NCBI RefSeq assembly: GCF_900492205.1
Contig: NZ_UEYQ01000007.1
Coordinates: 124,001 to 188,000 of the forward strand
DNA length: 64,000 nucleotides
Reading direction: 5' to 3'
Source: Ciceribacter sp. T2.26MG-112.2
GTDB lineage: Bacteria > Pseudomonadota > Alphaproteobacteria > Rhizobiales > Rhizobiaceae
The notes beneath the pieces are model-generated. The model did not search any database. It worked only from the letters and a program-made list of their open reading frames with translations, and was not told the DNA's origin. Both the position numbers and the translations under genes were made by a program. This document shows positions 47,866-52,986 of this stretch, in pieces (the first letter of the stretch is position 1; every line of letters begins with the position of its first letter).

Positions 47866-49176
47866 TTAGTTGCCGAGCGCCTGCTGGATGGCGGCGTTAC
47901 CACGCTCGACGGCCTTGTCGAGTGCTGCCTTGGCATCCTGTTGGCCTGACAGCATGGACTCGAATTCCTCGTTCATGATGTCGCGGACCTGCGGCAGGTT
48001 GATGAGACGTACACCCTTTGAGTTCTCGGTGGGTGCCTTGCCCATCATCTGCTGGATTGGCGTCTCACGGCCCGGGTTCTTCTCATAGAAGCCGGAGTCC
48101 TTGGTGGCCTTGTATGCCTCCATGGTGACGGGCAAGTAGCCGGAGACCTGGTGCAGACGGGCCTGGACTTCCGTCTGCGAAAGGAAATTGAAGAACTCGG
48201 CGATGCCCTTGTATTCTTCGTCGCTCTTGCCGCCAAAGACCCAGAGGCTGGCGCCGCCGGGGATGGTATTTTGTGGACGGCCGTCACCTTCGTAATATGG
48301 CAACTGGCCGATGCCATAGTTCATGCCGCTCTTGACGATATCGCCGAGCCCACCTGAAGACTCGGTCAGGATGGCGCATTCGCCGGAGAGGAAGAGGTTC
48401 TTGGCTTCAGAGGTCCTGCCGCCGTAACGGAAGACGCCTTCCTTGGCGAGGTCGGCAATCGACTGGAAGTGCTGGACAAATTCAGGCGAATTGAACTTCA
48501 GCTCGACATCGGTGTCCGCGAGGCCATTCTCGTTGTTGGCGTAGGACAGGTTGTTCCAGGCGGCAAAGTTCTCGGTCTGGATCCAGGTCAGCCACGTCGA
48601 CGTGTAGCCACACTCCGCGGCACCGCTCGTCTTGATCTTGCGGGCGGCCTCCCAGACTTGCGGCCATGTCTTCGGCGGGTTGTTGACATCCAGTCCCGCC
48701 TTCTCGAAGAGGTCCTTGTTGTAAAAGAGTATCGGCGAGGACGAGTTGTACGGGAAGGACAGCATGGTGCCGTCAGGCTTGGAGTAATAGGCCACGATGC
48801 CGGCCAGGTACTTGGCCTTGTCGAAGGTGTAACCACCCTTCTCGAGCACTTCGGCGACCGGCATGACTGCGCCTTCGGCACCCATCATTACGCCGGTACC
48901 GACGTCGAAGACCTGAATGATCGCCGGTGTCTGCTTGGCGCGGAACGCCGCGATGCCGGCATTGAGGGTTTCCGGATAGGTACCCTTGAAGACGGGCACA
49001 ATCTTGTAGTCGCTCTGCGTCTCGTTGAATTCCTTCGCCAGCGTGTCCACGACCTCGTTGTTGGCGCCGGTCATGGCGTGCCACCACTGCAGTTCCGTCA
49101 CTGCAAGCGCGCTCGACGCCCAAAGAAGCGACATGCTGGCTGCGACTGCCGAAAGAGCGATAATTTTCGTGGACAT
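47866..49176 (-). CDS. ugpB: sn-Glycerol-3-phosphate-binding protein UgpB
   Basis: A 436-residue periplasmic protein. Its signal peptide covers residues 1-24 (ending SSALA), then comes [12 protein letters not shown], the UgpB hallmark, and later [15 protein letters not shown] and [13 protein letters not shown] at 49176 follows GGGAGGAAACC; a longer open frame to 49425 is untranslated leader. It captures glycerol-3-phosphate and its diesters. As a Pho-regulon gene in many bacteria it may be phosphate controlled, but only weak half-sites resembling a PHO box were seen upstream (near 49290-49345). Confidence 0.92.
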
Positions 49177-49658
49177 GGTTTCCTCCCATTTGCCATTCAA
49201 ATCTGGTCTTTGTGGGCCCAATCCCGGCAAGCATCCCGTCAGGGTTGCCGACGATAGTTGAAGCCTCACATCAGCTAAACCAAATTTAGGTGCAATGACA
49301 ATGGGATATTTCCGTCCCATATGGACGAACCTGCCTGTCACACAACCCGCCCGACTAAATCCTGCGCAAAGGGGACAGCGCCATTCGTTCGTGAACGTCC
49401 GGAAAGCCAGCGCCTGATCCCTCAACTAACTCCTTGCGACTTCGACCTCGCTGCGAGATGATCATTGCCTATGTCGACACCGAGAGCATCGGGACACCGA
49501 TCCTCTATGGCCACGACGCCTTCCTAAAACGCAGGATGCGGACCAGAAACGACACCTGGCCGCAATTCGGCATCCATCCTTAAGCCCGCAGCCATAGGCA
49601 CTTCGTCGATGACGGCGGGTCGAGTTGCTTGAGTGTGTTACGGCGTGCCGATTATCAC
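49177..49658. other. Gene-free stretch upstream of ugpB and downstream of hipA
   Basis: This region holds the ugpB promoter region. A short inverted repeat, ATGGGA (49301-49306) and TCCCAT (49315-49320), may be a regulator site. A plus-strand open frame of 41 codons (49458-49583, beginning MIIAYVDTESIG) has no recognisable family and is not called. No other gene is visible. Confidence 0.45.
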
Positions 49659-50912
49659 CTAACCCGCGCAGGTACCGAGGATGGGGGTCATGAGTTGGAC
49701 ATGCGCATCGATACGCTCAAGAACCTTTTCCGGAACGACTTCGCGCTCGGGCAGCAACCACCAAAGCTGATTGACGCGCTCAACGGTATCGGACACCGCC
49801 TTGAGAACGGCGGCCTCGGGCAGGCGGGCACGATTGGCGAAGGCCTTCCAGCGTTGTACGTCCATCGCCTTGAAGGAACGTTCGCCGGAGAGTGACAGCG
49901 CCATGGCATCCGCCGGGATGTAAGGGATCGTCGAGAGCACGTCGTAGACGGGCGCAAATTCCGGCCTGTCCCCTGCCCCGCGATAAATCAGCGACCAGTT
50001 CTTCAAGTGCATGTCGCCATTGCCGGTCACGGCAGCCAAAGCCAACCGGCGGACGAATTCGAGCGCGGCGCCCGACGAGACGGCAACATTCAAAGCCGCG
50101 GCAATATCGTGATAGGCGGCTCCTTCATATTTTCTGGAAGGATGGACGCCAAACACCTGCGCGAAATCCTCGATATGGATCCGCTCTCCCCCGGCTCCCC
50201 GATCGAAACGTCGGAGGAGCAGAACGCTTCCGTCCGATAGCGTCCTGAACTCTTCCGGAATACCATCGAATTCTGACTGCTCAACAAGCTCGCGTTCGGG
50301 GACGTCCATGCCAATCGCTTCAGCAAGAGCGAGATTGGCATATTCGTTTTCCGACACGCCGGGAAACGCTGTCGATGGAAACTTGGCGATGTAGGAGCCC
50401 TGCTCATCTCCCAGCGGCAGTGTAAGGCCGCCGCCTTTGCCCGTGTTCTTGATGACAGAGAGCTTCATCTGAACGCCGGCGAGCGAAAATCGAGCTTTCG
50501 ACTTTGGGACAGGCAGGCCGTCGTGGCGAGCAATCGTTCTGTCACTTGGGACCACGCGGACAGCACCCGGAAGATCCGACCCTAGTGCTACGAGCAGATC
50601 GAAATCATTACCCGAGCGAACGCTGCCCGCGTGGTGCTTCTCCATGGCTTCACGCAGTTTGTCTTCGGGAAGGAGATTGGCAAAGAATGCCGGTAGCGCT
50701 CGGGCGACAGGCTTGGGGTCCTTACGAAGCCCTCCGCTCGCCGCGCGGAAGGACAGGCTCAGCACGGGGAATCCGCCTGTTGCACGATAGCTTCCCTCGA
50801 AACTGAACGCATTGAAGTCGCCGGGCGTCCTGACGATCGTCCCGACTTTCAGGTCGTTCAATAGAACGTCAAGCGACCAAATGGACCTTGCATCGGAAGA
50901 TGGCTCAAGCAT
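49659..50912 (-). CDS. hipA: HipA-family serine/threonine kinase toxin
   Basis: A 417-residue kinase of the HipA type. It shows AGVQMKLSV (about 145-153), catalytic GNGDMHLKN (about 297-305, Asp300) and the metal-binding Asp in APVYDVLST. HipA toxins phosphorylate glutamyl-tRNA synthetase or related targets and are blocked by HipB. ATG at 50912 overlaps the hipB end by eight bases and has GGGGA nearby; ATGs at 50918 and 50924 are alternatives. Residues appear intact, so the toxin may be active. Confidence 0.85.
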   Translation of the reverse strand: MLEPSSDARSIWSLDVLLNDLKVGTIVRTPGDFNAFSFEGSYRATGGFPVLSLSFRAASGGLRKDPKPVARALPAFFANLLPEDKLREAMEKHHAGSVRSGNDFDLLVALGSDLPGAVRVVPSDRTIARHDGLPVPKSKARFSLAGVQMKLSVIKNTGKGGGLTLPLGDEQGSYIAKFPSTAFPGVSENEYANLALAEAIGMDVPERELVEQSEFDGIPEEFRTLSDGSVLLLRRFDRGAGGERIHIEDFAQVFGVHPSRKYEGAAYHDIAAALNVAVSSGAALEFVRRLALAAVTGNGDMHLKNWSLIYRGAGDRPEFAPVYDVLSTIPYIPADAMALSLSGERSFKAMDVQRWKAFANRARLPEAAVLKAVSDTVERVNQLWWLLPEREVVPEKVLERIDAHVQLMTPILGTCAG

Positions 50913-51216
50913 TAGCATCCCCATCGGGGTGGGAAATGAAAGCTGGCAGATCATCGTAGTCATCATGCGGCCGTAGCAGGGCGTCAACTGCTGGGACCAT
51001 CGCCTGAGGGATCAACATCAACTCAAGCCCAAGCGCCCGTGAAATGTTGATCAAGGTGGTCGTCCTGGCAGCACTGCTCCCCGCCTCGATCTCGCGATAC
51101 CGAGGACGCGACAGTCCCGCCATGTCCGCCACCTGCTCTTGCGTGAGTCCCAGCCCCTTACGGGTCGCCTTCAACAGATCGCCGATTTCCAGCAATGCCT
51201 CTGATGCCGCCTCCAT
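50905..51216 (-). CDS. hipB: HipB-like antitoxin, XRE family
   Basis: A 103-residue DNA-binding protein with an XRE helix-turn-helix (residues 10-65, including LTQEQVADMAGLSRPRYREIE) and an acidic tail. It is the antitoxin to the adjacent HipA and should repress their shared promoter. Repeated ATGATA/TATCAT sites lie just upstream (51230-51298). Confidence 0.87.
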   Translation of the reverse strand: MEAASEALLEIGDLLKATRKGLGLTQEQVADMAGLSRPRYREIEAGSSAARTTTLINISRALGLELMLIPQAMVPAVDALLRPHDDYDDLPAFISHPDGDANA

Positions 51217-51482: not shown

Positions 51483-51599
51483 TGCCGAAATTTGTCGGAC
51501 ATAGGCACATTTGATGGGCGTGGCTGGTCGGGGTCACCCCTTCCTCGCTCAGCGAGCAAGAACCGCAGCTCGCTCCCGAGCCTATGATGTGACGGTCCT

Positions 51600-51735
51600 G
51601 AAAACGAAAAAGCCTGCCGCAGGAGGAGGTGCGGCAGGTTTTCCGAAAAGAACCGAACAGACACTCAAGAGGACGAGCGCCGGCTCCGACAGAGGCCCCA
51701 TGGGAGGAGGAGCGGGCCGTCTGAATTCGAAGATT
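51600..51735 (-). ncRNA. Candidate sRNA with two anti-Shine-Dalgarno hairpin loops (CcsR/alpha-r14-like)
   Basis: On the minus strand two hairpins present CUCCUCC-type loops. The first stem is GGCCC/GGGCC (51694-51698, 51714-51718), with loop GCTCCTCCTCCCATG. The second is CCTGCCGC/GCGGCAGG (51613-51620, 51631-51638), with loop ACCTCCTCCT, followed by a T-rich CTTTTTCGTTTT tail, a good intrinsic terminator. Two such loops plus terminator is the layout of rhizobial alpha-r14/NfeR1 and Rhodobacter CcsR RNAs, which pair with ribosome-binding sites. A DUF1127 gene lies upstream on the same strand, as for CcsR. The 5' end is estimated. Confidence 0.7.
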
Positions 51736-51888
51736 TGCGGGGGGAAGCGCATCGCTTCGGTCAAAACCAAGATACCCATGCCCGCTGCACATTAAACAGA
51801 CTTTGCTGCAGTGCAGCCATGTGAAGAATGCAGGAGTTAATCCTGACGAGAGCGATCTCCAGCACAGCGCCTCGCTCCGGCCAGACAT

Positions 51889-51914
51889 AGAAACGCCCGC
51901 GTCATCAGCGGGCG
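51889..51914 (-). terminator. Stem-loop after the DUF1127 gene
   Basis: CGCCCGC (51894-51900) and GCGGGCG (51908-51914) form a seven-base-pair stem with a seven-base loop; TTTCTAT follows on the minus strand. It lies 34 bases after the DUF1127 stop and may be a weak terminator or a processing site ahead of the sRNA. Confidence 0.5.
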
Positions 51915-51947
51915 CAGTATCACTCAGGGTGAGCAGGAAAAGGCTGT

Positions 51948-52094
51948 TTAGCGAGCAACCGACTGGCGAGCAACGCTGGGAATGTCGGCGCGATTGATAC
52001 CGAGGTCCTGCAGTTCGCGCGAACTCATGCGGCCAAGTTCAATAACGGTCTGACGATACTTGCGCCAGTTGTTGAAGGAGCGTGCTACGTTCAT
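51948..52094 (-). CDS. DUF1127 small protein, 48 residues
   Basis: The frame from ATG 52094 gives MNVARSFNNWRKYRQTVIEL, then GRMSSRELQDLGINRADIP, the full arginine-rich DUF1127 domain. AAGGGG stands seven bases upstream. Such proteins are too short for most gene finders. In Rhodobacter a DUF1127 protein is co-transcribed with CcsR sRNAs and takes part in RNA metabolism and stress adaptation; in Agrobacterium they affect phosphate and stress responses. It lies upstream of the anti-SD sRNA on the same strand, so a common transcript is likely. Confidence 0.88.
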   Translation of the reverse strand: MNVARSFNNWRKYRQTVIELGRMSSRELQDLGINRADIPSVARQSVAR

Positions 52095-52263: not shown

Positions 52264-52986
52264 TCAGACCCGGAACCGGTCGAAGGCGGTCAGTCGTTTG
52301 ATTGGAGGATCGGCGTACGAATAACGGTAGATTTCGGCCCTGATATAGCGGAGTTCACCATCGAGCGCGTCTTCGCCAACCTCGATCCACCAGGATTTCG
52401 GGCGGCCGTCACTTCCGTCGGACCAGCAATAGCCTCGCGCCTTCAGGTGATCTTTCATGTCAAAGGGACTGTTCTCTGCGAAAATATGGACACGCGACCG
52501 CTGGCTTGCTTCATAGAGCTCGGCAAAAGCGGAGCACGCCGATTCATCGACGTCCCGGGCGAGGACCTCCAGTAGCGCGAAACAATCGTCGACAGCGCGA
52601 TGACCTTCATGAAAATAGCCTGCCTGCCCGATCAGATATCCGAGCTTGGTGCCTTCATATCCTCGCGACGACCAGTCGATCTCGGAGTTAGAGCAAGCCC
52701 AGGCCTTGCCAGAAAACGGGTGAGAAAATGCCTCGCAGAATGGCCGGTCGAGGCCGGCATTGTGAGCGATCAGTAGATCGGCAGGCTCGATCAGCGCTTG
52801 TATCGCCGCCATGTCAATCAACTCCCCAGCGACCATATCGTCGGTGATCCCGGTGAGTCTGGTGATGTCGGAAGGAATCGAAACGCTCGGCTGCTGAAGC
52901 CCACCGTAAATCCCGGTCACGTCACCATCGATTGCCGCTGGAAAGGGGCTGCCACCATCCGTGCCGACCTTTTCAGGCGAGAACAA
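52264..52986 (-). pseudogene. DEDD 3'-5' exonuclease, truncated at its 5' end
   Basis: From TTG at 52986 the frame encodes 240 residues matching the central and C-terminal parts of a DnaQ/RNase T-like exonuclease: PSDITRLTGITDDMVAG, ExoII AHNAGLDRPFC and ExoIII HRAVDDC. The N-terminal Exo I motif (DxExT), needed for metal binding, is absent and replaced by unrelated sequence up to the TetR gene. The protein should be inactive unless a start or frame upstream is missed. A deletion joining the TetR gene to this fragment would explain it. Confidence 0.6.

Follow-up and report, generated by a model that had tools for sequence, protein, structure and literature searches.

Introduction

Anti-Shine–Dalgarno (aSD) loop motifs mimic the ribosome's own mRNA-docking sequence. 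In the ar14 family, NfeR1 (Smr14C2) is encoded on the chromosome of one rhizobium, where it has been described as regulating nitrogen metabolism (PMC10746234, PMC7143759). Its three motifs act redundantly (PMC7143759), and it possesses a sigma70 promoter with an LsrB site, TGCA-N6-GCAT (PMC10746234). RNAs with four hairpins and the aSD motif are known from the SmelA099 group (PMC3927594). Genes of the DUF1127 type have been found next to such RNAs: in the CIN1 locus, or cuckoo RNA family, a short DUF1127 gene lies beside a CcsR-like RNA (Reinkensmeier and Giegerich 2015, cited in PMC10253847), and in Rhodobacter sphaeroides an RpoHI/HII promoter drives the co-transcription of CcsR1–4 with CcaF1, the RNAs then being processed by RNase E (PMC10253847). 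Regulation of another kind has been reported for duf1127_1 of S. meliloti, where a uORF attenuator forms a regulatory element upstream of the DUF1127 gene (PMC12218461).

Here we analysed a 64,000-nt stretch of DNA from Ciceribacter sp. T2.26MG-112.2 (NZ_UEYQ01000007.1, positions 124,001 to 188,000), referred to as the window, in which a DUF1127 gene and a downstream minus-strand RNA had been predicted. The window RNA resembles ar14/NfeR1 in its aSD loops, its final terminator hairpin and the presence of several copies per genome, and it may share with NfeR1 a sigma70 promoter of its own with an LsrB-type box (PMC10746234); it differs in two altered loops and in having DUF1127 and an exonuclease as neighbours. 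As in CIN1/cuckoo, a short DUF1127 gene adjoins an RNA with CCUCCUCCC loops, the CcsR-like aSD motif (PMC10253847), and the DUF1127–RNA neighbourhood as such is thus already described. Compared with what the available extract on CIN1/cuckoo describes, a DEDDh exonuclease is a third part of the module to which the window locus belongs, and the window copy is truncated. With CcsR1–4/CcaF1 the locus shares the DUF1127 gene upstream of loop-motif RNAs (PMC10253847), while an intervening terminator and a separate promoter region set it apart.

Results and discussion

A diverged ar14 RNA

The original prediction had placed the RNA among the rhizobial ar14 and Rhodobacter CcsR types. A scan with Rfam covariance models supported the former assignment: ar14 (RF02344) matched at 51605–51728 on the minus strand with 62.3 bits against a gathering score of 58.8 (E-value 7e-9 across the 64-kb window), and no family other than ar14 reached its own gathering score within the window. 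The CcsR1 model (RF02791) scored 16.8 bits against 65.3, and membership of CcsR was therefore rejected. The fold has a z-score of –3.84 and was equalled in stability by none of 200 shuffles; the ar14 signal thus exceeds chance. The 48-codon frame was correctly recognised as DUF1127 (Table 1), and its protein shares 95.8% identity with its DUF1127 counterpart in a Rhizobium plasmid module.

Two hairpins had been predicted. Both loops are as proposed (CTCCTCCTCCC, 51712–51702, and ACCTCCTCCT, 51630–51621), and the latter sits in an intrinsic terminator whose T-rich tail ends at about 51601; comparison with 36 other loci, however, revealed four hairpins. Loop 1 reads CUUCCCCCC on a mostly kept stem, and hairpin 3 folds as an 8-bp hairpin. 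Loops 2 and 4 hence keep the aSD motif whole; in loop 1 it is altered and in loop 3 shortened, so the window RNA does not present it unpaired in every loop. Intact copies, L142 among them, present it in all four. Since the score passes the cut-off but the motif is intact only in loops 2 and 4, the window RNA is a diverged rather than a typical ar14 member. In homologous loci the loops are conserved as CUCCUCC, as anticipated, and the window's versions of loops 1 and 3 occurred in none of the 36 other aligned loci. The original prediction had missed both this alteration of two of four loops and the truncation of the window copy. A UCUUGAG variant of hairpin 3 is common to the window copy and L193 (L193:5281–5462), a three-part module with dinB, hinting at common origin or recombination.

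The consensus over 37 sequences comprises four hairpins with 38 pairs, 11 of which show changes on both sides, a count reached by none of 500 shuffles and by no slid control; two circumstances favour the structure here, namely that it was derived from the alignment also used for this count and that the sequences are related to one another. L161, whose row is cut within hairpin 1, was left out of the count for that hairpin. Whereas the Rfam ar14 model has three hairpins, the window's branch adds a fourth at the 5′ end, and in possessing four hairpins with the aSD motif this branch resembles the SmelA099 group (PMC3927594). Two loci of one genome (L177 and L178, G014 C1 and C4) lack the same segment between the loop 2 and loop 3 motifs, so that three hairpins remain; the repetition of aSD motifs may favour losses of this kind.

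Table 1 Features of the locus (positions in the window)
Feature	Position	Strand	Basis or remark
dinB 3′ end remnant, ~25 codons with gaps	51522..51587	+	DNA alignment to own copy L161
ar14-family four-hairpin sRNA	51601..51762	-	Rfam core 51605–51728; covariation in relatives
Hairpin 4/terminator	51601..51645	-	aSD loop ACCTCCTCCT intact
Hairpin 3	51660..51681	-	re-formed; loop UCCUCU, a shortened aSD
Hairpin 2	51690..51723	-	aSD loop CTCCTCCTCCC intact; one stem pair lost
Hairpin 1	51728..51759	-	loop CTTCCCCCC, an altered aSD; one stem pair lost
Probable -10 element TATCTT	51769..51774	-	position conserved in alignment
LsrB-like dyad TGCATTCTTCACAT	51819..51832	-	one base off TGCA-N6-GCAT
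Intrinsic terminator after DUF1127	51886..51914	-	cgcccgc-tgatgac-gcgggcg and T tail
DUF1127 gene, 48 codons	51948..52094	-	Pfam PF06568, 57.7 bits, cut-off 23.3
DEDDh 3′-5′ exonuclease gene 3′ part (PRK09182/NF006615 type), 5′-truncated	52264..52926	-	tblastn, NF006615

Truncated flanks and intact copies in the same genome

Upstream of DUF1127 lies part of an exonuclease gene, for which the NCBIfam name is PRK09182, 3′-5′ exonuclease. By tblastn the fragment covers residues 107–320 of 326 with 88% identity (52926–52285); the ORF extends to 52986, and its residues before about 52926 are unrelated to the family. NF006615 gave 345.4 bits (cut-off 207) over positions 87–304 of 307, and 422.4 bits on the genome's own C45 copy. 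In the alignment, catalytic motif I (DxE; DTETTGL) is missing from the window fragment and is present as DTETTGL or DVETTGL in all 15 other exonuclease sequences. The exonuclease of the window copy has thus lost its catalytic N-terminus, and dinB has lost all but its last codons. The dinB remnant, which by protein match alone is not significant (E 2.4), is convergent with the RNA, and in L161 dinB residues 289–360 end at this place. A hipBA-type pair (HTH plus HipA N- and C-terminal domains, 49659–51216) starts some 300 nt past the remnant; the position beside hipBA is thus as predicted, but this neighbour is particular to the window copy, the C46 copy having dinB in its place. An anti-phage role was considered as well: the exonuclease matches a CRISPR-associated DEDDh model and, less strongly, the candidate family PDC-S48, but such matches are expected for this fold.

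A whole-genome search returned five ar14 genes over the cut-off, the window's being the weakest (62.3 vs 98.5–114.5 bits), together with four exonuclease matches in all and seven DUF1127 matches over the cut-off, five of them on the same strand within 1 kb of an ar14 gene. Over 1.4 kb, two of the ar14 loci (C45:390–515 and C46:29287–29412) align to the window (87.4% and 83.55% identity, respectively), and both carry a complete exonuclease and DUF1127 upstream of the RNA. Downstream, the C46 copy has a full dinB and an SOS-associated peptidase gene; the C45 copy lies near a contig end, where the last 72 codons of dinB and no more were aligned. The 1.4-kb homology begins inside the exonuclease, at residue 107 of 326; its other end, in the comparison with the C45 copy, falls inside the last dinB codons. 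Further 3′ fragments of the exonuclease gene occur in other genomes of the genus (L063, L067, L068), which suggests that worn module copies are not rare.

An exonuclease–DUF1127–RNA module in relatives and on plasmids

Genomes of named species were scanned by exonuclease alignment; 419 relatives were found, and the analysis was restricted to the 80 best-matching ones, a sample that favours close relatives. Among these best 80 of 419, 38 have DUF1127 and three or more aSD motifs after the exonuclease; the remainder have such an RNA without DUF1127 (14), DUF1127 without such an RNA (7) or neither (21, of which three had less than 900 nt of sequence remaining). The three-motif rule would score the window's own two-motif RNA as missing, and L215 and L217 keep one motif each, so some of the seven DUF1127-only loci may be worn copies. 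Spacing in the 38 loci is tight: the start of DUF1127 lies 147–175 nt past the exonuclease (median 173), and a first full motif follows DUF1127 by 187–253 nt, with L235 as the exception (34 nt). All aSD clusters at exonuclease loci were downstream and on the same strand, with none upstream or on the opposite strand within the flanks. RNA-bearing loci occur in Rhizobium, Neorhizobium, Agrobacterium, Allorhizobium, Shinella and Aquamicrobium, among others, and several genomes carry two or three. In 26 of the best 80 loci dinB, an SOS peptidase gene or imuA comes next; many three-part loci are without those genes, and the three parts can thus persist without them.

In a plasmid collection, near or far relatives of the exonuclease were present in 485 records, 20 at 90–95% identity, and 183 were predicted to be conjugative. 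All four plasmids examined, each typed as conjugative, have an annotated exonuclease and DUF1127 with four aSD motifs downstream. In bacteria of soil and plants, intact relatives of the window locus hence adjoin a nuclease gene and are often plasmid-borne. What was least expected in the module is its conserved exonuclease; no mention of it as a partner of a DUF1127–RNA pair was found in the limited literature collection searched.

GTTC-N7-GTTC is the SOS site motif. Control of the module by the SOS response was not supported: the strict motif was located upstream of the exonuclease in one of 80 loci, between the parts in none and near the would-be dinB start in two of 80; the window has no such site.

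Probable wear of the window copy

Divergence was measured as differences from the relatives' majority over 33 sequences (three own and 30 of the 80 named), a distance from consensus with no tree; for two of the 33 the aligned part of the RNA was shorter than 40 columns. The window RNA is off consensus at 20 of 159 columns (12.6%), about five times the median of 2.5%, and is exceeded by L215 alone (16 of 110 columns), a locus without a full RNA. The exonuclease fragment deviates at 11.0% compared with a median of 9.2%, and the window's DUF1127 is outside the eight most divergent (median 6.3%). By this comparison the RNA is normally the best-kept part of the module, which does not hold here. The window copy is therefore most likely under relaxed constraint, and we consider it probable that the locus represents an additional, truncated copy of a plasmid-associated module with a worn RNA, redundant with intact copies. 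As a counterpoint to wear, DUF1127 is without sign of decay, and the re-formed stem of hairpin 3 could represent retuning.

We picture the intact module as a DEDDh exonuclease, a DUF1127 gene with its own terminator and a four-hairpin ar14 RNA, often facing dinB; the RNA presumably has a sigma70-type promoter of its own, together with an LsrB-like site for an activator. If expressed, the window RNA would probably act as NfeR1 does (PMC10746234, PMC7143759), its C-rich loops pairing with the Shine–Dalgarno region of mRNAs and blocking ribosome loading. Its effect would presumably be weakened and would duplicate that of intact copies at other sites in the genome. By analogy with the motif redundancy of NfeR1 (PMC7143759), two intact motifs may suffice. 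Repression of importer genes in the window, which the original prediction had put forward, would be a generic possibility: pairing of the RNA with the Shine–Dalgarno region of a substrate-binding gene (47866–49425) is predicted at –16.2 kcal/mol, and 26 of 53 long ORFs in the window reach –10, so the scan is unspecific here.

Should the locus instead be a dead remnant, neither the RNA nor DUF1127 would be expressed. Both flanking genes are truncated and two of four loops altered, as that would entail, yet the DUF1127 frame is open and close to the plasmid protein, the -10 element, terminator and fold are kept and the RNA still scores above the ar14 cut-off, which makes this reading unlikely; the RNA is, judging from these elements, probably still transcribed. 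We regard it as about equally unlikely that the RNA is a specialised paralogue, in which altered loops 1 and 3 confer different targets and are kept by selection. Such a role would suit the refolding of hairpin 3 with its UCCUCU loop, the related variant in the full module L193 and the apparently intact promoter and terminator; it fits poorly with a fragment truncated at both ends, with loops 1 and 3 that recur in none of the 36 other aligned loci, and with an RNA divergence near that of the exonuclease DNA, as expected in the absence of constraint.

Promoter, terminator and linkage to DUF1127

The truncated extra copy, as we read the locus, retains a conserved region upstream of the RNA that looks like the promoter region of NfeR1 (PMC10746234): the dyad is one base off, a probable -10 element is present, and transcription would start at about 51762. 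The pattern TGC-N7-GCAT lies within 105 nt upstream of the RNA in 44 of 52 loci, and appeared in 0.9% of 2000 shuffles of one such sequence. The window's GCAT-to-ACAT variant recurs in L213, a module that is intact, and therefore does not necessarily make the promoter weaker. A terminator separates DUF1127 from the RNA in 16 of the 17 same-genus loci of the window's layout, the window counted, and in 35 of the 38 named three-part loci; L209 and L205 narrowly fail the criterion, and in L235 the entire interval is missing. In this last locus (L235:4955–5209, a Rhizobium MAG) the promoter is gone as well and the RNA follows straight after the DUF1127 stop, so that it appears, by its arrangement, to be a natural CcsR-like fusion. 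A match to the Trp leader at 51887–51978 (23.7 vs 41 bits) was discarded, the hairpin being the DUF1127 terminator. A uORF attenuator was likewise rejected for these downstream hairpins, as the element of duf1127_1 lies upstream of its DUF1127 gene (PMC12218461).

Over the cut-off, ar14 was found in 37 of 60 genomes searched, the window's own included. Linkage was assessed for 115 of the 136 ar14 hits listed (at least 52 bits, with 2 kb per side unless the contig ended earlier). The search for DUF1127 used a small profile of three own or near sequences, which diverged members may escape, and a same-strand gene was present within 700 nt of 54 of the 115 hits; three others had an exonuclease without DUF1127 and 58 had neither. 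All 73 DUF1127 matches are on the strand of the RNA (the DUF1127 of G050 being counted twice). Given seven DUF1127 genes per 5 Mb, we estimate the chance expectation at about one in a thousand; the linkage is real. The RNA lies downstream of DUF1127 in 19 of the linked loci (two of them being one distant locus, G050), eight of which also hold the exonuclease, and upstream in 35. In these reverse-order loci (e.g., L112) the ar14 RNA is located some 220–520 nt ahead of one or two same-strand DUF1127 genes. The distant locus (L180, G050 C16), from another family, has two tandem ar14-like units closely after DUF1127 in a CcsR-like layout; a terminator was called at neither of its two ar14 hits.

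That DUF1127 and the RNA form a CcsR-like operon, as originally proposed, with a single RNase E-processed transcript and DUF1127 as RNA-binding partner, is improbable: the strong, strand-specific linkage, the RNA directly after the DUF1127 stop in L235 and the first G050 unit about 10 nt past the DUF1127 match would fit, but terminators between the genes, the conserved, NfeR1-like promoter region upstream of the RNA and the reverse order in 35 of 115 loci argue against it. Partial read-through from DUF1127 into the RNA is possible.

Conclusions

NfeR1 is described as a chromosomal regulator in one rhizobium; our data place a distinct four-hairpin ar14 branch on plasmids, beside a nuclease gene and partly near DNA-repair polymerase genes, and suggest that linkage to DUF1127 need not mean co-transcription. 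It is a doubtful but conceivable extension that exonuclease, DUF1127 and the four-hairpin aSD RNA work together as a mobile post-transcriptional module. The RNA would then be shaped or turned over by the nuclease and by DUF1127 as presumed RNA-binding protein, and conjugative plasmids would hold a portable brake on host translation, the window recording erosion after loss of the nuclease. If the three parts cooperate, plasmids would bring their own translation regulator; if they do not, their near-constant order and spacing across genera demands explanation. The window copy itself offers a natural loss-of-loop variant for asking how many aSD loops such an RNA needs.
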